Source: Ricordea florida
Lineage: Eukaryota; Cnidaria; Anthozoa; Corallimorpharia; Ricordeidae
DNA length: 64,000 bases
Assembly: GCA_949710005.1 (NCBI GenBank)
Contig: OX453282.1
Span: 9,526,679-9,590,678, forward strand
Direction: 5' to 3'
A program made the translations under genes and the position numbers. The notes below the pieces were generated by a model. The model did no database searches. It worked only from the letters and a program-made list of their open reading frames with translations, and had not been told where the DNA came from. Positions 1,470-13,151 of the stretch are shown one piece after another (within the stretch, counting starts at the first letter, position 1; each line of letters starts with the position of its first letter).

Positions 1470-1605
1470 CTTATTCTTTTTGTTTCAGAGAATCTGGTCT
1501 TTAAACTAGAAGATTTAGAATAAGATGTAAAGTATTAATCTTCGTTGGTATTTCTAATTCCTGCAAAACAATTGCAACCAACTTCAGTTTTCTCATATAC
1601 AAGTT

Positions 1606-2205
1606 TTAATGTTCTTTCTCTTCGATAAGTTCTTTTAATAGATCTTCGCGAACTTTCTTCTTTATAATTGACATGTCGAAGTTTTTTTGCGCGTCTCTCC
1701 TGAATTTTTGTCTGATTTCTAGTTTTAGTTTTTGAAACTTTTCCAATTCCGCCAAAATTATGGAAAATTCTTGATCGGATATAGCATTATCTTTCAAAGC
1801 TTTTGAAACCAAATCGTTAATTGTGTTTAATTTTGATTTTGCAATTGCCGCGGTTTGTTCATGTTTACTAACTTTGCCAGAAAGTTTTTTGGCGGTAATA
1901 CCAAATCCAACCGATAATACACCAAAAACTCCGCCTACAGCCCCCAAAGGCACACCAACAATAGCGCCAAAACCTGTGAGAGAAGTTCCAAGTCCGCCTG
2001 CAGATAGAATAACTGAAATCACACCCCCAAAAACACTAATTTTTGTACATATTCCTCTAGCCCTATTATATTTTTTCCTCACTTCTTCGTAATGTTTAAT
2101 TTCTTTCTCAAGATTTTGTAATACTTCGCTTGATTTTTGCAGTCTGAAATTAGCCGGATCTGTATTATTGGGTAATACGGGGTAAATTCTATTGTATTCA
2201 TCCAT
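1606..2205 (-). CDS. Glycine-rich hydrophobic protein with flanking helices (199 aa)
   Basis: The protein has a charged N-terminal helix (about residues 25-50), a long Gly/Val/Ile-rich hydrophobic core (about 55-105) with repeated GG and GxxxG spacing, and a charged C-terminal coiled coil ending in EEKEH. This suggests a membrane-inserting protein. Its place in the capsid-side block suggests a virion or membrane-active role, which is inference only. A TCTAAAG box lies 28 nt upstream of the ATG (plus 2233-2241). I cannot assign it to a named family. Confidence 0.7.
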   Translation of the reverse strand: MDEYNRIYPVLPNNTDPANFRLQKSSEVLQNLEKEIKHYEEVRKKYNRARGICTKISVFGGVISVILSAGGLGTSLTGFGAIVGVPLGAVGGVFGVLSVGFGITAKKLSGKVSKHEQTAAIAKSKLNTINDLVSKALKDNAISDQEFSIILAELEKFQKLKLEIRQKFRRDAQKNFDMSIIKKKVREDLLKELIEEKEH

Positions 2206-2249
2206 CTTGTATTTTACTACTCAACATGAAATCTTTAGATTGGCTTTTG

Positions 2250-3203
2250 TTACTTTCTCTTCTTTTTAAACTGTTCCACAAAATACAGAACTACAGCCAT
2301 TATCAAAAGCCAAGCATTTTCGCCTAAAAATCCAATAACCTGCCCAGCTGTTTTGAAAAGAAAGCTAACGATTGCTCCAATCATTCCGGGTAATATTTGC
2401 CCGAGTTTCTTACCAATGGTTTTCAATCCGTTTCCAACACCTTTTCCTAAAGTAGATAAGCCTTTCGAAAGTTGGGAAACAATAACCCCAATGATAGCGC
2501 CTACAGCGCTTAAAATCGCAAAAGCAGTAAATCCATATTTTTTGAAGATAGTCTTAACCCGCTCTCGCAACGACATTTTTTCCTGTATTTGCTCAGACTC
2601 GCGATCCCGGTTTGCTATTTCATTTTCATCTTCTTCAATTTGCCTATTTAATTCCTCTATTCGTGTTCTCTCCTCTGGTGTTTTCAATGGTTTTTCCTCA
2701 AGAAATTTTTTCTCCGCCCTCTTTTTGTTTTGTGATTCTTTTGTCTTTTCATTTTCGCGATTATTTTCTTCTACAATTTCTTCTGCTCTAGGGCCAAGGG
2801 CATTTTTCAATTGGGCACTAGTAAGTTTAGCCCCGTTTTTTTCATTTATGAATTCTCCATCTCTAAGAACATATTTAGCGGCATTATCTCTTTTTAGTTT
2901 AATGAAGGGTTCTTTGAATGCCTCGCTTAATCCTTTTATAAATTTTTGTAATTTTGCGCGCGGATAAAATGTTCTTATTTCATCTTCTGCAATTTTTTGT
3001 TCTTGCATCTTTTTTAAAAGGGGCTGATTTTCATTAATGCCACCAAATGGAGTTTCTTGCTCTTCATCTTCGCCATCATAATTAGGATATTCTGGTTGGT
3101 TTGTAGATGTAATCGTATCCATTTCAATACCAGCATCATCTTCTTCATCAACATCATCATCATTTAGCTCGGTTGGATCTAAATATTCTCCTCCTTCTGC
3201 CAT
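2250..3203 (-). CDS. Acidic/coiled-coil protein with amphipathic Gly-rich C-terminus (317 aa)
   Basis: Residues 1-60 are acidic (Asp/Glu runs). Residues about 130-215 are strongly charged and coiled-coil-like. The last 100 residues alternate hydrophobic and Lys/Gly positions (GKGVGNGLKTIGKKLGQ) and end in a membrane span plus FKKKRK. An acidic head with an amphipathic membrane-active tail is the kind of design used by minor capsid proteins that disrupt membranes; that role is inferred, not shown. A TCTTAAAGA box lies 27 nt before the ATG. The 86-bp gap to the right is shared with a divergent plus-strand ORF. Confidence 0.7.
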   Translation of the reverse strand: MAEGGEYLDPTELNDDDVDEEDDAGIEMDTITSTNQPEYPNYDGEDEEQETPFGGINENQPLLKKMQEQKIAEDEIRTFYPRAKLQKFIKGLSEAFKEPFIKLKRDNAAKYVLRDGEFINEKNGAKLTSAQLKNALGPRAEEIVEENNRENEKTKESQNKKRAEKKFLEEKPLKTPEERTRIEELNRQIEEDENEIANRDRESEQIQEKMSLRERVKTIFKKYGFTAFAILSAVGAIIGVIVSQLSKGLSTLGKGVGNGLKTIGKKLGQILPGMIGAIVSFLFKTAGQVIGFLGENAWLLIMAVVLYFVEQFKKKRK

Positions 3204-3289
3204 GATTTTTTACTCATCAGTAAAGAAATCTTTAAGACTTTTTAAAAATTGAATTATGATTTAAAAGATAAAAAAGTAAAATAAGAAAA

Positions 3290-3577
3290 ATGACGAGTAA
3301 AGAAGGACAAGAATACAAAACTATTAAAATTAGCACCGACGATTTTGTAAATTACGGTAAAAAAATAGGATTTGTTGTTTCGTATCAAGATGCCAATAAA
3401 ATTTTAAGTAAATTTCAAAAAGAATATGATCCAGATAGAGACATTGAAGAAGATAAAAGGAAAATGAGAGCTGAATTAGCAGAAAAATATGGAATAGAAA
3501 ATGATAATAGTATTAGTGATGAGGAAATGTTGAAAAAACTTGCCTCGAAAATATGTTGGATAACTTATTTCAATTGA
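3290..3577 (+). CDS. Small 95-aa ORF on the strand opposite its neighbours
   Basis: This ORF lies between two minus-strand genes. The protein is charged and helical, with no recognised domain. Two things support it being real: an ATTTAAAAG box at 3259-3267, 23-31 nt before the ATG and identical to the box before the polymerase gene, and the lack of any opposing minus-strand gene here. Its last residues (KICWITYFN) are read from the left arm and loop of a hairpin shared with the convergent gene, so its end may have been altered. Function unknown. Confidence 0.5.
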   Translation: MTSKEGQEYKTIKISTDDFVNYGKKIGFVVSYQDANKILSKFQKEYDPDRDIEEDKRKMRAELAEKYGIENDNSISDEEMLKKLASKICWITYFN

Positions 3578-3599
3578 CGTACACAAAGTTATCCAACAT
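3553..3599. terminator. Perfect 14-bp hairpin between convergent genes
   Basis: The arms 3553-3566 (atgttggataactt) and 3586-3599 are exact reverse complements around a 19-nt loop. The plus-strand stop codon (3575-3577) is in the loop, and the minus-strand stop (3599-3601) overlaps the right arm. This position suggests a shared 3'-end or termination signal working on both strands. Confidence 0.6.
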
Positions 3600-3991
3600 T
3601 ACAAGAATTTACTAGCCGCATACCCTAAAGCCAACATTCCTCCCCCTACATATACCATTTCACCTGTTTTTTGATCATCGCTTGGTTTGTAATAATCAGA
3701 GAATTTTGGTTTTTGCATTTGGCTGTACAATTCAAAAGCTTGATTTGTGGTTGAAAAATTTTTTGATGCTTGGTATTTTTCATCTTTTTTCTTCATTTTC
3801 CAATCAATCATTTTTTGTCTTTTTTCCTGATATTCTGCGTAATCTCTTTGGTATTTTTCCATTGCTTTATCGTGTCGTATTTTTTCTGTATCAACTTTAT
3901 TCCCTGTAAGATATTTTGCAAGAATATTTCCGCCAGTAAATGCCGTTGCATTCAATATAGCCCCACCAATCATCATCATTATTGTTGCCAT
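3599..3991 (-). CDS. Small two-span membrane protein (130 aa)
   Basis: An N-terminal hydrophobic segment (about residues 3-27) and a C-terminal Gly-rich one (about 113-130) flank a charged helix rich in Lys, Glu and Gln. The segment KPKFSDYYKPSDDQKTGE before the last span resembles a motif I recall from small proteins of cnidarian Polinton-like elements. It abuts the 72-aa gene, with one base between this start (3991) and the neighbour's stop, so the two are probably co-transcribed. A virion membrane protein is a reasonable inference. Confidence 0.7.
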   Translation of the reverse strand: MATIMMMIGGAILNATAFTGGNILAKYLTGNKVDTEKIRHDKAMEKYQRDYAEYQEKRQKMIDWKMKKKDEKYQASKNFSTTNQAFELYSQMQKPKFSDYYKPSDDQKTGEMVYVGGGMLALGYAASKFL

Positions 3992-3992
3992 T

Positions 3993-4211
3993 TTACTTTG
4001 GTAAAATCTTTTGATCCTCTAAATATGTTTTTAGATACATACTTCCAGATAATACAGCAACCCATTTTGCGTAATTTGTAATACTTGAGGATGGGTCGCT
4101 CAAAAATGATTCTTTCATCATCTTTTTTGCTACATAACCAACTCCCGCCCCCAATCCAATAAGTACTGCTGAATCAGTTACAGTTTTCACAAGTTTGTTT
4201 TCGCTTGACAT
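3993..4211 (-). CDS. Small membrane protein (72 aa)
   Basis: The protein has two hydrophobic stretches: AVLIGLGAGVGYVAKKMM (about residues 15-32) and WVAVLSGSMYLKTYL (about 50-64). It lies directly upstream of the 130-aa membrane protein. A 14-bp inverted repeat (4210-4223 and 4249-4262) begins at its start codon, and an ATTTAAAAG box (plus 4234-4242) lies in the loop. Function unknown; its size and place suit a minor virion membrane component. Confidence 0.65.
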   Translation of the reverse strand: MSSENKLVKTVTDSAVLIGLGAGVGYVAKKMMKESFLSDPSSSITNYAKWVAVLSGSMYLKTYLEDQKILPK

Positions 4212-4262
4212 TTTTTACTACATCATTAAGAAACTTTTAAATAACTTTATGTAGTAAAAAAT
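4210..4262. promoter_or_regulatory. Hairpin enclosing the promoter-like box of the 72-aa gene
   Basis: Arms 4210-4223 (attttttactacat) and 4249-4262 pair perfectly over a 25-nt loop that contains the ATTTAAAAG box. The left arm includes part of the 72-aa start codon. Confidence 0.5.
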
Positions 4263-4271
4263 AATTTATAA

Positions 4272-4712
4272 TTACATCATTCCAATTTTTGGACGATCTA
4301 GGGTCTGCGCTTGAGTATTTGGTTGTGGATTATGAATCTTTATGGGTGGGGCTTGAAAAGGTTGTGGTATTTGGGGAACTTGAGATAAATCAGGTATTCT
4401 ATTTTTATAATATCTCATAAACATATCAAATGCTGTAAAGCCTATTCCAACAATGGATAAAACAGTAGTAAAAGATAGCTCTGGAAGCCACGCTTTTGCT
4501 TCATTGTTTGACTTTTCTTCTTTATCTTCACTAACCACTTGTTCCCTTTCACGTTTCATTTCCCTAGCTAATGCTTCTTTTGCTTTTTTATTATATTCCG
4601 CTAATTTTTTACCAGCTGCTACTTTTTTAGGATCTTTCTCCCTCTTTTTAGTATCTTTATTTTCAGGTGCGGGATCAGCCGTAATTTGCTCAACTTCAGA
4701 TTGTTCAGACAT
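4272..4712 (-). CDS. Basic protein with single membrane span and Pro-rich tail (146 aa)
   Basis: Residues 1-70 are Lys/Glu-rich with the stretch KDPKKVAAGKKLAEYNKKA. A single hydrophobic segment follows (about 80-98, FTTVLSIVGIGFTAFDMF), then a Pro/Gln-rich tail. The N-terminal pattern resembles a small protein I recall from other cnidarian Polinton-like elements. The basic part could bind DNA while the span anchors it; this is inference. An AGATCTAAAAAC box lies 24 nt before the start (plus 4736-4747). Confidence 0.7.
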   Translation of the reverse strand: MSEQSEVEQITADPAPENKDTKKREKDPKKVAAGKKLAEYNKKAKEALAREMKREREQVVSEDKEEKSNNEAKAWLPELSFTTVLSIVGIGFTAFDMFMRYYKNRIPDLSQVPQIPQPFQAPPIKIHNPQPNTQAQTLDRPKIGMM

Positions 4713-4749
4713 TGTTATTTAGATGCTGCAAATAAGTTTTTAGATCTGT

Positions 4750-5280
4750 TTAATATACTGTATCAACACCCTCAGTAGATTGCTTATTTTCCTGATTAGT
4801 TGTGGTAGAATTTACTGTATTTTGTTGTATTTTTCCTATTTTAACGTGCTTAGCTACTTGAAATAATCCGCTAGCAAGTGCAGCCAGTCTTCCTGATTTT
4901 AATGCTAATAGACCAACAATGTTTGTTAGTTCACGATTAACTAAATCATCATTCTTCAAATCCTTACAAAGTGCATCAATGTCATCAACCGGAACTAAAT
5001 ATGAAATAATTTTAGAAATTAATTGAAGGGATGAATCTACCACCCCACCACTAATTTTCTTACCCATTACCGATTGATAACGATTAAAATATTTTTCTAC
5101 ATCGCGTTCCGCTAATTTTTTTACATCGCCCAGGCTCATATCAACCCCTAAATATTCCTTTGTTGTCCCAAGCACTGCGAGAATGGCTAGTGATTCTTGT
5201 TTAACTTCAAGATCCTCACTTTGATTAGTATCATTTTTTACCTCTGTCTTTTCTTCAATGTAATCTTCAACGTTTGTCAT
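4750..5280 (-). CDS. Helical element protein of unknown function (about 176 aa)
   Basis: The longest frame starts at 5316 and overlaps the ATPase end, but the internal ATG at 5280 (MTNVEDYIEE) gives a non-overlapping gene 5 nt after the ATPase stop, so I chose it. The protein has an acidic N-terminus, a helical middle (DMSLGDVKKLAERDVEKYF) and a hydrophobic segment LLALKSGRLAALASGLFQVA near its end. No clear TYTAAA box precedes it, which fits co-transcription with the ATPase. Function unknown. Confidence 0.7.
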   Translation of the reverse strand: MTNVEDYIEEKTEVKNDTNQSEDLEVKQESLAILAVLGTTKEYLGVDMSLGDVKKLAERDVEKYFNRYQSVMGKKISGGVVDSSLQLISKIISYLVPVDDIDALCKDLKNDDLVNRELTNIVGLLALKSGRLAALASGLFQVAKHVKIGKIQQNTVNSTTTNQENKQSTEGVDTVY

Positions 5281-5285
5281 CTTTG

Positions 5286-5912
5286 TTAAATCACCTCGGG
5301 AATCTCTAAATAGCAATTAAATGGGTAACGCAAACTCAAACAAAGTCTAGAATATTTTTCAGTTTTCAAGAGTTGGACAAACTTTTTACCTAATTCATAA
5401 TCCAAATCACCACCATAATCTTCAAAAAACATTTTCATACCTTTTTGTGATGGATTATGAAAAGTAACAACGCAGGCCACATTTTCTCGGAATGGTTTTG
5501 CTATTGATGTTAATTGTTGAGTTAAAACCCACATTGATAAACCATGATGCCTTCCGGAGAATGCTAAATCTATAAATTTATTAGATCTTTTCTTCAGATC
5601 AGTGGATACAGCGCAATCATCTAAAATTATTAGTGTATTTGTACCAGAGAATAAAGTTTGGCAATCATTTAACAATTCATTAATCTCATCTGTATTACTT
5701 GCATCGGGTGATAATACAAAGAATCTCTTATCCCCGATAGCAAAATTATGATATGTTTTATTTTTAGAATAGGTTGGGCAAATTAAAACAATATATTCAA
5801 AAACTTTTCGGAAAGTACCTCGTAGCTGTTCAATTAGGTACTTTGTTTTCCCACAATTTGTTGGTCCTGTTATAATACAATGAAATGGGGTTTTATCTCT
5901 TAAATCTTCCAT
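5286..5912 (-). CDS. A32-like genome-packaging ATPase
   Basis: This is a P-loop NTPase of the FtsK/HerA-type packaging ATPases used by Polintons, adintoviruses and large DNA viruses to drive DNA into capsids. The Walker A motif GPTNCGKT is followed by Walker B LIILDD about 75 residues later, then the conserved-looking GRHHGLSMWVLTQQ. The longest frame begins at 5927, but the second Met (MEDLRDK, 5912) places the TCTAAAAAC box 24 nt upstream, the spacing seen at the other genes, so 5912 is the likelier start. The 208-residue length suits this family. It sits next to the presumed capsid gene, the usual pairing. Confidence 0.88.
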   Translation of the reverse strand: MEDLRDKTPFHCIITGPTNCGKTKYLIEQLRGTFRKVFEYIVLICPTYSKNKTYHNFAIGDKRFFVLSPDASNTDEINELLNDCQTLFSGTNTLIILDDCAVSTDLKKRSNKFIDLAFSGRHHGLSMWVLTQQLTSIAKPFRENVACVVTFHNPSQKGMKMFFEDYGGDLDYELGKKFVQLLKTEKYSRLCLSLRYPFNCYLEIPEVI

Positions 5913-5947
5913 GATTTTTTGTATCATAACATTATGTTTTTAGATTC

Positions 5948-7189
5948 TCAGTACTTAATTGATCTCAAACTTGAATTCATTATTTCCATCATTGCATCAG
6001 CTACAACAAACATATAACAAGTTATTGTTCCTGAAACGCTTTGTTTCCTTTTAATTTCTATTTTTACACCATCGTGTGTATTATTTAGAGCTAGCCCTCC
6101 CCCATGAATGATATTATCTGGATGTGTTCTAGTATCAACCCAAAGAGCAAACTTATCCGCGTAAAATTCTTTTTCTTTCAATGAAATTTGTAAGCCATAA
6201 TCTCTATGAAATCGTTTTTTCACGGATTCCCAAAAATCAGACGGAATCATTCCCCTAGAGTATATTCTATTTGGCACACCATCAACATCAATTTCAACGG
6301 AAGATATACCTGGATTATAAAAATTTTCAGAATCCCTTGCTCCTGCAGTTTGAGGTAATAAAAACAAAAATAATACCCCAGTCATTGATCTTCTCGGTAA
6401 ATTAATATGCTGATTAATAACACCATCACCTCCAATGGAAAATGTAAAAGTTTTATGTAAGGTAATATTTTCATAAAAGAATCCTTTACCAACTTGATAT
6501 GTTGATTGTGCCTCTCGGGCTAAGTATTCGCTTGAAATTGAAGAATATTCTAACTCTAAGTTTTTGATTGAATATGATGGTGCTTTAGTTGTATCAGAAT
6601 AAATAAGAATATTATTGATTGGGGCAAGTGTAAGCTCAAATATTAGATGGTTTTCCAACGCTTTCGGATAAAAAACACCATGATCGTTTAAAATAGGGTG
6701 ATTTATTGGTATTCTATACTTTGAACCATGAACATTAGCTAGAGCAACTTCTTTTACATCTTGTGTTTTTGCATCTCCAGCTTTTGTTCTAAGTTTTCTA
6801 ATATTTAACGAAGAAATACCTTGTTTTAATCTATCTTCGCGCTCTTCTTCAGTTAAGAATAAATCATGATATGTTTGAAATAGATCATATCTTTGAGTAT
6901 CTTGTAATGTTTCACCTCCAAAAAGAACTTTTAGTCTGGTTACAAGATTACGGCCCACATTATTAACAACTGTATTATTAGCATGTCCCTCAACATCTAA
7001 ATCAAATAGAAGAGATACACTTCCAGGCACAATCACTAAATTATCTGAAAGTTTTGGAATATTTATGTATAATGTTTCTCCAGGACTGGCTGATGATGGA
7101 TTTAGAGTAATTCTGTTGAATGTTGATTCTGCCTTCAAACCAAAAGGTTCCCTTGGAATTCTGTTTGGATTAATTTTTTCAGACGTCAT
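5948..7189 (-). CDS. Probable major capsid protein (double jelly-roll type)
   Basis: This is a 413-residue beta-rich protein without enzymatic motifs or membrane spans. I assign it as the capsid protein from its size, its place between the packaging ATPase and the integrase, and similarity, from memory, to capsid-type proteins of cnidarian Polinton-like elements (for example LQDTQRYDLFQTYHDLFLT and the later NHPILNDHGVFYPKAL). The fold cannot be seen from sequence alone; a structure prediction showing two jelly rolls would settle it. A GGTTTAAAGG box lies 28 nt upstream, and AGTATCTTATAAAT lies just before the start. The frame is intact. Confidence 0.7.
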   Translation of the reverse strand: MTSEKINPNRIPREPFGLKAESTFNRITLNPSSASPGETLYINIPKLSDNLVIVPGSVSLLFDLDVEGHANNTVVNNVGRNLVTRLKVLFGGETLQDTQRYDLFQTYHDLFLTEEEREDRLKQGISSLNIRKLRTKAGDAKTQDVKEVALANVHGSKYRIPINHPILNDHGVFYPKALENHLIFELTLAPINNILIYSDTTKAPSYSIKNLELEYSSISSEYLAREAQSTYQVGKGFFYENITLHKTFTFSIGGDGVINQHINLPRRSMTGVLFLFLLPQTAGARDSENFYNPGISSVEIDVDGVPNRIYSRGMIPSDFWESVKKRFHRDYGLQISLKEKEFYADKFALWVDTRTHPDNIIHGGGLALNNTHDGVKIEIKRKQSVSGTITCYMFVVADAMMEIMNSSLRSIKY

Positions 7190-7219
7190 ACTTGATTTAT
7201 AAGATACTTTGGCTAACCT

Positions 7220-7408
7220 TTAAACCTGTGTTGTTCTATTATTCTCTAATTTATTAATATGTTTTAATAACTTTTCTCTCGCACTAGGTATTAAAATCAA
7301 AACATTAAAAATATCATCACCATCTTCCATATCTAGAATTTTTTTAATGATAATTTTTTTCATAATGTTAATTTGATATCCAGAAAAAATTATTTTTTCT
7401 TCCCCCAT
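7220..7408 (-). CDS. Small ORF between capsid and integrase (62 aa)
   Basis: A short Lys/Ile-rich frame lies 30 nt from the capsid start. It shares the element's promoter-like layout: a TTTAAA box 25 nt upstream (plus 7433-7441) and CAAGTATCTTATAAAT beside the ATG, nearly the same as before the capsid gene. That shared upstream DNA is the main support. No domain is recognised. Confidence 0.45.
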   Translation of the reverse strand: MGEEKIIFSGYQINIMKKIIIKKILDMEDGDDIFNVLILIPSAREKLLKHINKLENNRTTQV

Positions 7409-7439
7409 TTTAATTTATAAGATACTTGTTTATTTTTAA
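7409..7439. promoter_or_regulatory. 31-bp bidirectional promoter region
   Basis: Only 31 bp separate the minus-strand 62-aa start (7408) from the plus-strand integrase start (7440). It contains a plus-strand AATTTATAAG 22-31 nt before the integrase ATG and a minus-strand TTTAAA box that overlaps the integrase start codon. Confidence 0.5.
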
Positions 7440-8414
7440 ATGATGTCAAAAATATATTATTCGACTGAAGGGTATTGGAAAGGATATTCCGCGATTCCTA
7501 AATTAGCTGAGAAGGCTAGAGTAAGTGAAAATGAGGCAAAAAGGTGGTTAGAGAAACAGGCAATATGGCAAATCTATCTTCCAGCTCCAAAATATATACC
7601 TAGACCACACTGGACTGTGGATAAACCAAATCAGATTCACCAAGCAGATTTATTATTTTTACCGCATGATAGAGTTGGAAGAAAAACATATAAATATGCG
7701 TTAGTTGTGGTTGATATCGCCTCGAGATATAAAGATGCGGAGCCATTAACTTCAAAAGAAAGTCGAGAGATATCAGAAGCTTTTACAAAAATATATTCTA
7801 GAAGATTGGAATACCCTAAAACATTAATGGTTGATCCAGGAAAGGAATTTATGGGTGAAGTTAGTAAACTCATGAATTACCATAATGTAAGAATACAAAG
7901 AAGTGAAGCTGGTAATCATAGAGCTCAAGCATTTGTAGAAAATGCAAATAGAATATTGGGGGAAAGATTATTTAGTCATCAATATGCGCAAGAAATGATT
8001 AGTGATGGGCGATCTAGAGTATGGGTGAAAAGATTACCAGCTATTCTAAAAACTTTGAATAATACAAAAAAGAGAATAACCGGTAAAGAGCCTGATGAGG
8101 CTATAAAAATGAAAGAGGTTGATATTAAAACTAAAAATTACAAGCGGGTTGTAGGGCTTGATGAGGTTAGACTACCAACTGAAGTTAGGGTTAGATATTT
8201 ATTATCCCCGGGTGAGCTTGAGGGTGGTGAAAGAAGAAGAGCCACAGATCCTATTTGGAGTATAAAAGTTTATTATATTTCTGGAAGTAGAATTTCTCCT
8301 AATCAGCCTGTTTTATACTTTTTACAAGATGGCCCAAGACGAGGTTTTGTAAGGGAAGAGTTACAGGTTATTCCGTATGATACAGAGTTACCCCCTAATT
8401 CTGTTTTGAAATGA
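7440..8414 (+). CDS. Retroviral-type (RVE, DDE) integrase
   Basis: This enzyme inserts the element into host DNA. The RVE catalytic triad is readable: D70 (HQADLLFLP), D132 (LMVDPGKEF) and E167 (AQAFVENANRI), with 34 residues between the second and third, close to the canonical DD35E spacing. An N-terminal helical region precedes the core and a basic beta-rich C-terminal region follows. At 324 aa it matches Polinton/adintovirus integrases. The start could be either of two adjacent ATGs (7440 or 7443). It converges on the polymerase gene with a single base between stop codons. The intact triad suggests recent activity. Confidence 0.9.
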   Translation: MMSKIYYSTEGYWKGYSAIPKLAEKARVSENEAKRWLEKQAIWQIYLPAPKYIPRPHWTVDKPNQIHQADLLFLPHDRVGRKTYKYALVVVDIASRYKDAEPLTSKESREISEAFTKIYSRRLEYPKTLMVDPGKEFMGEVSKLMNYHNVRIQRSEAGNHRAQAFVENANRILGERLFSHQYAQEMISDGRSRVWVKRLPAILKTLNNTKKRITGKEPDEAIKMKEVDIKTKNYKRVVGLDEVRLPTEVRVRYLLSPGELEGGERRRATDPIWSIKVYYISGSRISPNQPVLYFLQDGPRRGFVREELQVIPYDTELPPNSVLK

Positions 8415-8415
8415 T

Positions 8416-11400
8416 CTAATACAATGGTTTTGTGTGAATTCCATCCTCATAAACCCATCTTTTATCATAATATGCATTAAATGCTTTTTTATTTTGTGTA
8501 TATGTCACAATTTGATTATCATTGACTCTAAATCCTGTATTTTGTGCCATATCATTTGCCCCTTTTAAAGCAGCCCAGTAAACATTCCAGTTTATTTCGT
8601 TTTGTCTATGAATTATACTTTTAGCACTATACTTTGCTTTTCCTTTCTCATCCTCCGCGTAATAACATTTTGAAGAAAGTGCAATCATTCGTACACCATC
8701 AAACTCTTTTTTGAACAAACCTGGGGTCCTTTCATGATATTTAGATGTTGATAGGAATTTTTCTTTTCCACCATTAAAGTATTCTTTTCTCATTTCAGGT
8801 TTTATAATATCATCCAAGTTTTCAGCTGAAATTGCCATGTACATAGAATCTGTATCCATTTGTATCAACTCAAAATCCTTTCTATCTATATATTTATCTA
8901 GAAAATCGTAATAGAATTCCAACATTCTTAATTTTGCTAGTTGATATACCGCAATTCCGCATTGATAGGGTCTGTCTATTTTTATTAATCTTTTTCGTTT
9001 TACTATTTCATATGTGTCATTTATTTCTGTAAGATCTTCAAAGAACGCAGATCTTAAGGCTTTTTCAACCTCTTCCTCATCCTGAGTATACCTTGTGTTC
9101 TTATGTTTTTCTTTATCTTCTATCATTTTCCCATAAAAAGAATTTCCCTTAAGTTTATTTGTGTCCGCTAATTCTTTACAACCTTTATACTTTGGTTTTA
9201 GTTTTTCAATTAATACTTTAATGTCTTTGTTCTCTTCAATAACTTTAAATATATCAGGAAATTGGTTTAATTCATTAGTAATGTTTACGACATCATCAAT
9301 CTTGTTTTCATCAAAAGCTTTACTTAATTTTTCCAATAAAATCTCAATATCTCCATCTCTTCTTGCGTCTGCCACCTCTTTTGGAAACCAGCCAAAGGGC
9401 CTTCCCGGTTCATACTTTAAAATATTATGAATGGCGGTAATCTCAAAACCATGATTAAGGTACCATTTTATCATAGGTGTATATAACAATATCTTTTTTG
9501 CCTTGGTAACCCCGAGTAATTTTTTATTATCTTTTAGGTGTTTTCTACCTGTCGCTCTTTGATATTCTTTCATGTGCTCTGGTACTAAATATTCAGGAAC
9601 GGCATCTACAATAAATAACGGCGAAAACTCCTCAAACTTTTCTTTTAGGTGATCAGGGGCGTGTATATCAACTTGGCAAAATCCGAAAAGATTACCATCA
9701 AGAATCTCTTTGCAAATCTTCTTAATAAATTTAGGATCTGATGGATTTTCAACCTCAATGCATTCTTCTTTTCCGCATGGCATTTCTTGTCCCGCACAAT
9801 ATAGATATAAACCATTTGCGTCATAACCAACAATTCGCACACAATTTTTTGGAATTTTAAATTTATGCGGGCGAATCTTTGTTTTATCCTTTTCTTCATA
9901 GCGCGTAAATATAATACTAGGCCCTCCAACCATACCCGTTTTCAATAGTTTATAAATCTTGTTTTTGTCGCATGTTTTACAATCTTTCTTTATTTTGTAG
10001 CATTTTTTGCAAATCTTGTTATTACAACAACTATGAATACAGTATTGTCCTGGGGCGTACAATTCAGGATCACCTTTCTTCTTCATTTTTTGATATTTAT
10101 TTAAAACATACCGCATTGAAACGCCTGGGATGGAAACAGCATCTTTTAATATATCGATTTCGTCTGGATAATATAAACGCCTTGTTTTTTCTAAAGCTTC
10201 TTTGAAAGGGATAACATCGTTTAAGTTATACTCTTTCAACCAGTCTAGCATTGTAACACACCCCCGTGTTTTAAATTCAATCAAATATTCTTCATATTCT
10301 TCTTTGGAAATGTTTTTCTTTTTCAAACTAGAGTAAAAGTCTTCATGTTTCACCGGTCCAACGTGAGAAAGCTTATCATAACTATCCAAAAATTCATAAG
10401 GAAGCACAAGTTTTTTGGCCTCACAATTGTTTGCTTTACACCACTTATCAAAAGAAACTCCAGGTGCAAGGTAAGACATTATATCCAAGAATTTGAAATT
10501 CGTTGTTGATAAAAACATATACCTATTCTGTTTCTTTGCAATAAAAATCTCCTTAGTTTTATCAGTCATATGTTTTATAAAATGTCTTTTAATCAAATTG
10601 ATATCATATTTTCCACTATTAAACCCAAAAACCGGTACTTGATTACACCATTCTTCATATTTTTCTAAAACACATTTTTGTAAAGAATCTTGATCAGGTA
10701 GCGGGTATTCTTCTTTAACTTTTTCAACTATGATTTTTCTTATTTCCTCCAATTTTTCAACGAATTCTTTTATAAGCTCATCAGGGTTTTGGTTGTAAAG
10801 AAAAACGCGTTTGTTTGTTAAATTATCGATTATTGCAACACTAACTGGAATGTGTATATTTGTAAAACTTAAATCATCAGTAATATGATTATCTTCTTTT
10901 TGTAATATTGACTCAAAATCGAAAATAATATTATATGGATATGGAAAAAATTTCTTTTTGAACCATATATTGGGTAATTCAGGATTTTCACACTCCCAAA
11001 CCGATACTACATTATAACCTAAGCTTTTTATCTTCTTTTCTCTTTCAATAGTTTCATTATATTTAATTTTGTCGGTTGTAGAACACGGACACCCGTGCCA
11101 TTTACACCCATAGAACTCAAAAACAGTATTTGTCTCAGGTTCATATCCATCAAACAAAATCTCATTCCCCCTTTCATCCCTATAACACCTTTCACCACCA
11201 TGACCACAAAGCCCATGATGAATATGTTTACCCATAATTTTAGATTGGTTTTCTATCCACCTACACGCTTTATAACTAAATTGGGTGTTGCCCCCATAAA
11301 ACACTTTTTCAGATTCATTCCTGATATGTTTTATCTTTTCTCCTGTGCATAATATTTTTGTCTTTCCTCCTGTACATGTTTCATTAGTAAAATGCCTTTT

Positions 11401-12834
11401 TAAATCTTCATGTCTGGTAAATTTTTGTTTACATCCTTGGCATACCCAGTTTTCAGCAAGAAGGTTAAGATTATTAATGAAAAAACCGTGCCCATCATAA
11501 AGCCCCAAATTTAGGGTTGGTAAATTATCTTTGAAATTGTTTTTTCCGAACACTAGTTTCCAAACTTTAAAATTTTCTCTTTCTTTTTGCTCATAAGCCC
11601 GAATGTTTATGGAAAAAAATTTGGCAATTTTCTCAAAATCAATGAGTTTTGTTTGTCTAACATCTGCTTTTTTCAGTTTTTGATTATTATAAAAATCTTT
11701 AGCTAGATTTAGCGATTGTTTCTCTATATCTTTTTCAGGTCTGTCTTTACCAGAAAGAATATTCATTAGAATAGCTAAACACCTCCATACACATAAATTA
11801 TCATCTTTATCATCCACCGAGTAAATACATCTTTTTTTGCGTAGCTCGTCCGGTAATCTTCCGCACCCAATTAAAGGTTGTCTAGTGTGAATGACTTTTA
11901 TTTTTACTTCTATAAACTCAACCCAACCCCCATGAACACCAGGTTTATGAATTTTCTTTTCTGCGGGCAAATATGCTCTACTCCAAGCGATACCCTCTAA
12001 ACTCAATCTTTGCCCCTCGCACTGCTCTATATAATCTTTTATTTCTGAAAGGGAGGTAAAAGTTCCTCCGCTTCTAAATGTGTGCGCGTGATAAGCTATT
12101 TCACCATTTCCCCTATGAACCGAAGCCGCAAAACTGAAAACAATTCTTGAGCCCATTTCTATGTGAGGTTCCAATTCATTATAAATTGTTTCTGTCAGAT
12201 CATTATTTAGATCTCTCCTAATTCGAATAATATTTTCATTTCTTTCGGTGATATTTTGAAGATAAGCTTCAGGTTCAGGCGGTCTTATTGGAAATATTCT
12301 AAGGGTTGTTGTTCTTTTTCGTTTTGTTTTAGATTTAGCCCCCTCCTCCACATTATTCCCTTCATTTTTTGTTTTAGGTTTAGCACCCTCCTTCCCATAA
12401 TCCCTTCCCTCAGATGAAGTTTCCTTTTTTCCAGGTTGAGGTTTTGATTTAGGTCTAGCACCCTCCTTCTCATAATTCCTTCCATCAGATGAAGTTTCCT
12501 TTTTTCCAGGTTGGGGTTTTGATTTAGGTCTAGCACCCTCCTTCTCATAATCTCTTCCCTCAGATGAAGTTTCCTTTTTTCCAGGTTGAGGTTTTGATTT
12601 AGGTCTAGCACCCTCCTTCTCATAATTCCTTCCATCAGATGAAGTTTCCTCTCCTTCATCTGCAGTGAAATATTCATCTTCTTCTTCAGCATCATTAAAT
12701 GCGCTGTTTATACTATTTTGAATAGGTTCTGGTAAGAATGATATAATCATATCCGAAAATTTTTTAATACCTCCCCTAACTGGGCTGCTGGCTCTTTCTA
12801 ATAAATTTTTGAATGAGTTAAATAATGATCCCAT
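8416..12834 (-). CDS. Protein-primed family B DNA polymerase with large N-terminal extension
   Basis: This 1,472-residue enzyme replicates the element. Order of parts: a helical N-terminus; 3.7 copies of a 25-residue repeat (about 63-155); a conserved Cys stretch NLCVWRCLAILMN near 340; a C2H2-like finger CQGCKQKFTRHEDLKRHF near 465; an endonuclease-like patch DGYEPETNTVFEFYGCKWHG near 560-580; 3'-5' exonuclease motifs FDFES (about 635) and FGFNSGKYDIN (about 735); a Cys-rich insertion (about 928-960); and polymerase motifs A (YDANGLYLY, about 1004), B (KGNSFYGK, about 1226) and C (MDTDS, about 1323). All catalytic motifs appear intact. An ATTTAAAAG box is 25 nt upstream. This layout is typical of Polinton and adintovirus polymerases. 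Confidence 0.93.
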   Translation of the reverse strand: MGSLFNSFKNLLERASSPVRGGIKKFSDMIISFLPEPIQNSINSAFNDAEEEDEYFTADEGEETSSDGRNYEKEGARPKSKPQPGKKETSSEGRDYEKEGARPKSKPQPGKKETSSDGRNYEKEGARPKSKPQPGKKETSSEGRDYGKEGAKPKTKNEGNNVEEGAKSKTKRKRTTTLRIFPIRPPEPEAYLQNITERNENIIRIRRDLNNDLTETIYNELEPHIEMGSRIVFSFAASVHRGNGEIAYHAHTFRSGGTFTSLSEIKDYIEQCEGQRLSLEGIAWSRAYLPAEKKIHKPGVHGGWVEFIEVKIKVIHTRQPLIGCGRLPDELRKKRCIYSVDDKDDNLCVWRCLAILMNILSGKDRPEKDIEKQSLNLAKDFYNNQKLKKADVRQTKLIDFEKIAKFFSINIRAYEQKERENFKVWKLVFGKNNFKDNLPTLNLGLYDGHGFFINNLNLLAENWVCQGCKQKFTRHEDLKRHFTNETCTGGKTKILCTGEKIKHIRNESEKVFYGGNTQFSYKACRWIENQSKIMGKHIHHGLCGHGGERCYRDERGNEILFDGYEPETNTVFEFYGCKWHGCPCSTTDKIKYNETIEREKKIKSLGYNVVSVWECENPELPNIWFKKKFFPYPYNIIFDFESILQKEDNHITDDLSFTNIHIPVSVAIIDNLTNKRVFLYNQNPDELIKEFVEKLEEIRKIIVEKVKEEYPLPDQDSLQKCVLEKYEEWCNQVPVFGFNSGKYDINLIKRHFIKHMTDKTKEIFIAKKQNRYMFLSTTNFKFLDIMSYLAPGVSFDKWCKANNCEAKKLVLPYEFLDSYDKLSHVGPVKHEDFYSSLKKKNISKEEYEEYLIEFKTRGCVTMLDWLKEYNLNDVIPFKEALEKTRRLYYPDEIDILKDAVSIPGVSMRYVLNKYQKMKKKGDPELYAPGQYCIHSCCNNKICKKCYKIKKDCKTCDKNKIYKLLKTGMVGGPSIIFTRYEEKDKTKIRPHKFKIPKNCVRIVGYDANGLYLYCAGQEMPCGKEECIEVENPSDPKFIKKICKEILDGNLFGFCQVDIHAPDHLKEKFEEFSPLFIVDAVPEYLVPEHMKEYQRATGRKHLKDNKKLLGVTKAKKILLYTPMIKWYLNHGFEITAIHNILKYEPGRPFGWFPKEVADARRDGDIEILLEKLSKAFDENKIDDVVNITNELNQFPDIFKVIEENKDIKVLIEKLKPKYKGCKELADTNKLKGNSFYGKMIEDKEKHKNTRYTQDEEEVEKALRSAFFEDLTEINDTYEIVKRKRLIKIDRPYQCGIAVYQLAKLRMLEFYYDFLDKYIDRKDFELIQMDTDSMYMAISAENLDDIIKPEMRKEYFNGGKEKFLSTSKYHERTPGLFKKEFDGVRMIALSSKCYYAEDEKGKAKYSAKSIIHRQNEINWNVYWAALKGANDMAQNTGFRVNDNQIVTYTQNKKAFNAYYDKRWVYEDGIHTKPLY
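12370..12648 (-). repeat. 75-bp in-frame tandem repeat in the polymerase N-terminus
   Basis: About 3.7 copies of a 75-bp unit encode a hydrophilic 25-residue repeat, ETSS(D/E)GR(N/D)YEKEGA-RPKSKPQPGKK. Units alternate between DGRN and EGRD versions, suggesting duplication of a two-unit block. The region is likely disordered and length-variable. Confidence 0.9.
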
Positions 12835-12886
12835 ATCTTTTTTGATAATACTTTTTTTCTTTTAAATCATTTTTTATTTTCTTGTT

Positions 12887-13070
12887 AAAAATCTCTGTTT
12901 AATTTTCTGATAAATCTCTGTTTAATTTTATGAATTTTGCGGATACTTTAATAAACGGTAAAAAATCTCTGTTTAATTTTCTGATAAATCTCTGATAAAA
13001 AGAAAGACGGCTCAAAAAAAATCTCTGTTTAATTTTCTGATAAATCTCTGATAAAAAGAAAATCGGCTTA
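12887..13070. repeat. Subterminal tandem repeats of the Polinton-like element
   Basis: Three copies of AAATCTCTGTTTAATTTTCT plus GATAAATCTCTG start near 12,887, 12,961 and 13,018. The last two share a longer unit of about 57 bp ending in ATAAAAAGAAA and CGGCT. TCTCTG occurs six times at regular positions. They lie between the polymerase start and the presumed element end, where replication or terminal-protein sites would be expected. Confidence 0.75.
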
Positions 13071-13071
13071 T

Positions 13072-13151
13072 AATCACGCTTATATACTACTACCCTACTA
13101 AAATCAAAGTATATATTATGAATTCACATAAACTACACCACTAGCGTGATT
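13072..13151. repeat. Short inverted repeat near the right end of the element
   Basis: AATCACGCT (13,072-13,080) and AGCGTGATT (13,143-13,151) flank about 60 bp. Host-type sequence resumes soon after, so the true terminus of the element is probably within or just after this interval. The partner terminal repeat is outside the window. Confidence 0.4.

Follow-up and report, generated by a model that had tools for sequence, protein, structure and literature searches.

A shared promoter-like box precedes most genes of an adintovirus abundant in the genome of Ricordea florida

Introduction

Which signals start transcription of the genes of an endogenous adintovirus, and which polymerase reads them? 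The question is raised by a 64,000-nt stretch of the Ricordea florida genome (contig C11, positions 9526679–9590678, in a genome of 538 Mb and 48 contigs), here called the window, the first 13.1 kb of which are the larger part of one adintovirus/Polinton element of ~15.9 kb in total. Before most genes of this element lies the hexamer TYTAAA (Y, T or C), which a sequence-only reading of the window had already pointed out; the two-part structure and the two probable promoter classes described below go beyond what that reading saw. Transcription of Polintons and adintoviruses is little described, and no work on a core promoter of either was found in a literature search judged from titles, abstract openings and top-ranked records. 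One grammar for most genes would serve the mapping of start sites, the sorting of early from late genes, the correction of gene starts (e.g. that of the ATPase) and the question of which polymerase reads the element. Elements of the pGKL plasmid type and poxviruses have been proposed to descend from Polinton-like ancestors (PMC6211774), and a likeness to their promoters bears on that proposal.

The shared box and its conservation

A shared promoter-like element was observed before most genes, and it is real. The sequence-only reading had placed a box before ten of twelve genes; all ten boxes were found in their places, whereas the gene total is 13 and the count consequently 10/13, since a 130-aa open reading frame (ORF; orf130 in Table 1) had been overlooked. 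The spacing of 23–30 nt that it had given was recovered as 24–30 nt from box end to ATG, except that the ATPase box lies only 11 nt from the first ATG of its gene (5927). The second in-frame ATG (5912) lies 26 nt from the box end, or 32 nt when counted from the box start, and the first ATG is lost in sister copy L003 and out of frame in L004; position 5912 is therefore likely the ATPase start. With this start corrected, the first base of the box is found 30–36 nt before the ATG.

The hexamer TYTAAA occurred at 30–36 nt in 8/13 upstreams (a count that takes the ATPase from 5927 and hence as a miss, the CTTAAA of orf317 being extra), which was reached in none of 5000 dinucleotide shuffles (shuffle maximum 5). 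When every 6-mer carrying no more than one Y/R/W was scanned blind in each 7-nt band, TYTAAA at 30–36 ranked first, tied with TTTARA, while 0/300 shuffles reached 8 and two reached 7. An equal density before random ATGs, an outcome that the sequence-only reading had held against itself, was not observed: only 21/1704 (1.2%) of the host-flank ATGs had the box at 29–36, as did 18/485 of all ATGs of the element, genes included. On 35 stretches, ORFs of ≥65 aa that do not overlap gave 209 unique upstreams, a pooled set that includes ORFs that are surely not genes; in it TTTAAA occurred 60 times at 31–35, TCTAAA 28 times, CTTAAA twice, TATAAA once and TGTAAA not at all. Upstream of one histone H4 gene (L084), which carries little weight, TATAAA, TTTAAA and TCTAAA were all absent in 179 nt; histone-fold matches, one of them read as this histone, are arrayed at ~5.2-kb steps in the genome.

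The element is very abundant in this genome. At least 101 close capsid copies of 94–100% identity were found, the window's own counted, together with at least 100 other places at 65–70% identity to a capsid (P0081) that is itself 63% identical to the window capsid; the latter, distant copies were chosen by their likeness to P0081, and one sampled member (L051) begins like the window's own family. Sister alleles were drawn from 15 copies read around the capsid, side pieces of nine, the eight first loci and the window, and were counted as unique upstreams with YYTAAA at 26–38, window alleles included. The box was present in all alleles of orf72 (16/16), capsid (12/12), orf199 (11/11), orf146 (10/10) and the gene at the window edge (1/1), in 15/16 of the ATPase and in 5/6 of orf317. 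It is thus kept at a near-fixed distance in related copies, where a lack of conservation had been the other outcome to be feared; this conservation is that of one genome and one lineage of elements, and several counts contain orthologous rows. Alleles of orf199, the ATPase and the edge gene differ in having T or C at position 2 of the box but agree in the other five, orf317 has CTTAAA in the window vs TCTAAA in sister copies, and nine further edge homologues have TCTAAA at 36–37.

Further from the window copy, TTTAAA was found 33–39 nt before the ATG in 20/20 sampled capsids of the at least 100 distant ones (in L054 counted from the first ATG that follows the start of the match); as these copies are related, they do not amount to 20 independent events. 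Among 20 unique capsid segments (21 sequences including the window), TTTAAA was invariant, as were T (+23) and A (+26), while +11 to +18 varied. Four more ORFs of the element lie left of the window, and their box distances were 33 (orf120), 35 (orf164), 28 (orf208) and only 20 (orf254). Other polymerase copies had the box at 33–35, and in the alternative polymerase described below the two starts read had TTTAAA at 25 and CTTAAA at 33.

Second element and probable promoter classes

In 18/25 promoters a second word, YAAA, begins at offset 22–25, counted from the first base of the box, and 2–12 nt before the ATG. The range in which it was sought was taken from the pGKL literature (PMC6831550), and within this range the shuffle mean was 5.6 and the maximum 13 in 5000; 12/16 gene families have a member carrying the word. 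A pyrimidine–A step at offset 22–24 was observed in 21/23 promoters against a shuffle mean of 11.8, with 0/5000 single-base shuffles reaching 21, in a test that omitted two of the 25 promoters (distance <27) and used an offset first noticed in the same data. Among alleles, the offset from box to second element was constant while the distance to the ATG floated: 22 in 16/16 for the AGTAAAA of orf72 (box-to-ATG 30–37, a spread of 7 nt), 20 in 15/15 for the ATACAAA of the ATPase (28–33, 5 nt) and identical in 12/12 for the capsid (34–35, 1 nt). The ATG is at 42 in one orf317 allele that contains a long A-run, and in the orf199 homologue L036 the second word is absent. The earlier suggestion that transcription starts almost at the ATG is in keeping with a YAAA 2–12 nt before it; given the offset of 22–25 nt at which this word begins, initiation close to the ATG is the most plausible reading.

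The promoters probably fall into two classes. Clustering of 140 unique boxed upstreams by protein resulted in 21 clusters, and the triplet TGR (R, A or G) was observed directly before the box in 26/30 upstreams of six clusters vs 0/96 of nine clusters. The six are polymerase with orf120 (8/8), an alternative polymerase (1/1), a 231–272-aa protein (11/12), a 131–164-aa Rho_N/zinc-repeat protein (4/5), orf95 (1/2) and a 174–209-aa protein (1/2), and the nine are capsid, ATPase, orf72, orf146, orf199, orf208, orf317, orf62 and the edge gene. Of the genes with a known role, 9/9 boxed polymerase-type upstreams (orf120 clustering with them) had TGR vs 0/20 of capsid and ATPase together; polymerase and orf120 share a box via the terminal repeat and are therefore not independent. 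The T/C choice within the box follows the same division, with TCTAAA in 0/30 upstreams of the TGR clusters vs 42/96 of the TGR-less ones. Excluded from the class count was orf188 (GTGA in 5/5), because these letters are ATPase codons, and the remaining five clusters (9 upstreams) are ORFs without gene support. By analogy with poxviruses, the TGR class would probably be early and the TGR-less class late.

Genes without a box

Where genes are tightly packed the box is missing: it was absent in 39/39 starts located ≤14 nt after the preceding stop. The gap between stop and ATG is 1–4 nt in orf130, which has no box, and 5–8 nt in the box-less alleles of orf188 vs 25–26 nt in its boxed alleles. Distant ATPases likewise had gaps of 7–14 nt without a box (9), 33–86 nt with YYTAAA (6) and 30–76 nt with ATTAAA or GTTAAA (5), though the sister ATPase of L018 has no box at a gap of 27. 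The box needs ~30 nt, so this rule is partly geometric; the pattern nevertheless suggests stop–start coupled translation where promoters are missing. That the 188-aa gene and the integrase have no clear box, as the sequence-only reading stated, is true of the window, although the orf188 box is present in 6/16 unique copies. Orf188 segregates for promoter presence and absence (window 5281–5290; L010, L012, L013, L016 and L019), ~20 extra bp making a TTTAAA box from the ATPase stop (ATTTAA).

Interpretation and alternatives

The reading that we favour, with a probability of roughly 70%, is that each gene or stop–start coupled pair has its own compact two-part core promoter of the form TYTAAA–~17 nt–YAAA. 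In such a promoter TYTAAA would position the polymerase and transcription would start at the first A of YAAA, 23–26 nt downstream of the box's initial T; the resulting mRNA leader would be ~2–12 nt long and mostly A-rich. TGR with TTTAAA would mark the polymerase and some other, probably early, genes, and TYTAAA without TGR the capsid, the ATPase and some other, probably late, genes, while box-less ORFs ≤14 nt after a stop would probably be translated from the mRNA of the upstream gene. The default reader would be the host RNA polymerase II (Pol II), and since TATAAA is nearly absent it would be recruited by something other than a TATA-binding protein (TBP) that prefers TATAAA.

For this arrangement, whose layout would be that of pGKL plasmids and late poxvirus genes (PMC6211774, PMC6831550), known systems offer parallels. 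The pGKL linear yeast plasmids have tightly packed genes too, and one promoter per gene and very short leaders of the kind proposed here; in pGKL1 a hexamer lies ~30 nt before the ATG, and transcription of pGKL genes starts at an A, in TAAAN for leader-bearing genes, usually 17–22 nt (median 19) after the hexamer (PMC6831550, PMC6211774), compared with a first A of YAAA 18–21 nt after the hexamer in 18/25 promoters here. The plasmids differ in their hexamer (ATNTGA instead of TYTAAA) and in having their own RNA polymerase and capping enzyme, neither of which was found here by Pfam. Vaccinia early, intermediate and late promoters similarly combine an upstream core with a TAAAT initiator, and their NTGA early element resembles the TGR class, but the core words are different and the virus is cytoplasmic with its own polymerase (PMC6211774).

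Several observations weigh against the two-part promoter. The integrase, with orf62 facing it over a gap of 31 nt and no box in any of 14 unique alleles, is a real exception, and the box is lacking in 5/17 alleles of orf62 and 10/16 of orf188. Of the 20 sampled distant ATPases, YYTAAA was found at 31–34 in 6, four of which are CTTAAA, whereas 5 had ATTAAA or GTTAAA at 30–32 and 9 had short gaps. The start of orf317 is ambiguous in L013 and L033 (one copy) and in L019, where the distance from the box to an earlier in-frame ATG is only 18 nt. The promoters of the YAAA count were a chosen set of 25 that represents 16 gene families and includes several orthologues, the shuffles were of single bases, and strict TAAA in the pGKL-derived range (8/25, P 0.03) is only weakly above shuffles. 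In orf188, orf62, orf199 and orf317 the second element shifts by one or two bases relative to the box. Sequence before the ATG is commonly A-rich anyway, and anchoring on the box was only modestly better than anchoring on the ATG across genes; as A-runs gain and lose bases by mutation alone, the floating ATG distance is support and not proof. With regard to the classes, the clusters other than polymerases, capsid and ATPase have no known role and were placed after the split was seen, and the alternative polymerase of L028 (box at 25), which is outside the class count, has no TGR.

Chance occurrence in AT-rich DNA, or derivation of the words from stop codons and A-rich start contexts, can be practically dismissed. 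The element is indeed 63–70% A+T, and an upstream TAA stop overlaps the capsid box and, in sister alleles, that of orf188, but neither shuffles nor host-flank ATGs reproduce the box, TTTAAA is kept in all 20 sampled distant capsid upstreams and the T/C swap at position 2 of orf199, ATPase and edge boxes leaves the other five positions intact. The shuffles, the host-flank ATGs, the copies and the pooled counts led to the rejection of chance, of overlap with stop codons and of the context of start codons as a full explanation. A more serious alternative, possible though at less than even odds, which overlap those of the two-part promoter, is that host Pol II and TBP read the hexamer as an ordinary TATA box, with a start ~30 nt downstream, at or inside the ATG, a start at YAAA being possible as well. 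The host nuclear polymerase is the simplest reader, given that Pfam searches with 20 proteins of this copy and two others (most genes of the other copies unscanned) found no RNA polymerase gene, and like the metazoan TATA box the hexamer is AT-rich and at a fixed distance from the start, being mostly 28–37 nt before the ATG. TATAAA, however, is the best TBP site and TCTAAA a poor one, and TATAAA occurred once vs 88 TYTAAA at 31–35. Transcription from a TATA box usually starts ~30 nt downstream, whereas the apparent start is ~24 nt from the box here, and transcripts beginning within or past the ATG would lack their start codon. Reports from Amoebidium point both ways, as demethylation alone switched on 32% of adintovirus genes but no capsid gene was reactivated (PMC11244446).

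Alternatively the box could be read by an RNA polymerase of the giant-virus type, in which case the element would be virophage-like and need a co-infecting virus, at least for its capsid-type genes. In favour of this, TCTA is the Mavirus/CroV late promoter word (PMC8547959) and, in a related integrating virus, precedes the genes within AT-rich sequence (PMC8547959, PMC10945749); both the geometry of box and TAAA and the TGR class are reminiscent of poxvirus and pGKL promoters (PMC6211774, PMC6831550). The likeness to this late promoter noticed by the sequence-only reading did not amount to an established link: only the first four letters of TCTAAA match and TTTAAA is about twice as common; in addition the TCTA or TTTA is followed by AA here and accompanied by a second element, and the host has no known giant virus. 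Four Pox_VLTF3-like stretches above the Pfam cut-off were detected in the genome (C15:18661274, C8:15643102, C12:7234181 and C6:16806129), two of them with stop codons. As VLTF3 genes also occur in adintovirus-like elements (PMC11244446), these remnants need not be of giant-virus origin. No capsid of nucleocytoplasmic large DNA viruses (NCLDV) was found in the genome, a search result that does not show absence, and with just four VLTF3-like stretches and no such capsid a helper virus is not established; we consider a giant-virus type reader unlikely. Likewise doubtful, and held as a speculation, is a broader form in which the adintoviruses here keep a poxvirus/pGKL-like grammar not built for Pol II and TBP, the capsid-type and perhaps all genes being read by the polymerase or late factor of another virus. 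If true, such a foreign polymerase or late factor would make an abundant endogenous element virophage-like.

The element and its genes

Several traits of adintoviruses and Polintons are present in the element. A 236-bp terminal inverted repeat (TIR) was identified by blastn at window 12857–13092 vs C11:9523891–9524126, inverted and with 99.2% identity, and the 5-bp sequence ACCCT is found on both flanks as a target duplication (edges read by eye), in agreement with the 5–6 bp duplications of this group; the TIRs and the duplication give the element its length of ~15.9 kb and make it look recently inserted. The integrase (Pfam rve, E 2.3e-9) and the A32-type packaging ATPase (Pox_A32, E 1.7e-12) were above cut-off. 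The capsid, for which a double jelly-roll would be expected in this group, has a weak Capsid_N match below cut-off (E 2.9e-4) and 939 homologues, and no match in PHROGs. The polymerase ORF is labelled family B on account of its invariant blocks, including KGNSFYGK and DTDS, which we take to be motifs of that family, because searches of Pfam, PHROGs and the PDB gave no sequence match; 1107 homologues align to its residues 880–1472. No confirmed locus was obtained in viral_contigs with the capsid, the capsid alignment, the PolB alignment, the ATPase or the integrase, nor in genome_contigs with the capsid alignment, and the capsid had no match in phages. Coordinates are collected in Table 1. The inner edge of the TIR lies 4 bp downstream of the polymerase box, so that both terminal genes would start from one repeat-borne box.

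Table 1. Boxes, genes and terminal repeat of the element in window coordinates.
Feature	Coordinates	Strand	Remarks
Right TIR	12857..13091		Then ACCCT target duplication 13092–13096; blastn, edges by eye
Polymerase box TTTAAA	12861..12866	-	ATGA before it (TGR class); YAAA-type element 12841–12844, offset 22
DNA polymerase, 1472 aa	8416..12834	-	Presumably family B (motifs)
rve integrase	7440..8414	+	Pfam rve; YYTAAA at 26–38 in 0/14 unique alleles
orf62 box TTTAAA	7435..7440	-	YAAA element 7414–7417; box in 12/17 unique alleles
orf62	7220..7408	-	No Pfam match
Capsid box TTTAAA	7219..7224	-	Overlaps orf62 stop codon; YAAA element 7196–7199
Major capsid protein, 413 aa	5948..7189	-	Capsid_N below cut-off
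ATPase box TCTAAA	5939..5944	-	YAAA-type element 5918–5921
A32-like packaging ATPase	5286..5912	-	Likely start at second ATG (5912); Pox_A32, sister copies
orf188	4750..5280	-	ATG 5280, 5 nt after ATPase stop; box absent in window copy; no Pfam match
orf146 box TCTAAA	4739..4744	-	Gene 4272–4712; YAAA element 4718–4721
orf72 box TTTAAA	4236..4241	-	Gene 3993–4211; YAAA element 4214–4217
orf130, 130 aa	3599..3991	-	ATG 1 nt after orf72 stop; box in 0/11 unique alleles
orf95 box TTTAAA	3260..3265	+	ATGA before it (TGR class); gene 3290–3577; YAAA absent from expected range
orf317 box CTTAAA	3231..3236	-	Gene 2250–3203; sisters TCTAAA; YAAA element 3209–3212
orf199 box TCTAAA	2234..2239	-	Gene 1606–2205; sisters TCTAAA or TTTAAA; YAAA element 2213–2216
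Edge-gene box TTTAAA	1500..1505	-	ATG 1469, gene runs off window start; nine sisters TCTAAA; YAAA-type element 1479–1482

Two polymerases, ~21–30% identical over their aligned parts, alternate among copies with 94–98% identical capsids and 88–98% identical integrases, which is a replication-gene swap on one structural module. The split runs between L011, L015 and L017–L022 on one side and L009, L010, L012–L014, L016 and L023 on the other, a polymerase only 21–30% identical to that of the window being present in 8/15 sister copies. By eye, the N-terminus of the window polymerase (12256–12695) contains several near-identical ~23-aa repeats (DYEKEGARPKSKPQPGKKETSSEGR), and that of sister copy L024 is quite different. 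Tandem repeats (AAATCTCTGTTTAATTTTCTGAT) were likewise seen by eye within both TIRs (window 12880–13060 and L042 4430–4600). A 164-aa protein at L042:5049–5543 is a candidate DNA-binding factor; it starts with Rho_N, and its repeated zinc-like C-H...C-C units (GGSQICEH...CKEC) are presumably of a kind known from giant viruses.

Inspection by eye also revealed structures around some of the boxes. The orf72 box is framed by a 12–13 bp inverted repeat (TTTTTTACTACAT...ATGTAGTAAAAAA; window 4200–4260), the left arm of which is lost in L021–L023 with the box retained. Variable inserts precede orf188 in L010, L012 and L013, and between a stop codon and the next box there are short GC-rich words that resemble hairpins (CCGCTTCGCGG or CCGCAAAGCGG, for instance), before the ATPase in L019 and L070 and before orf199 in L025 and others. 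These words and inserts are possibly transcript 3'-end hairpins or mini-insertions.

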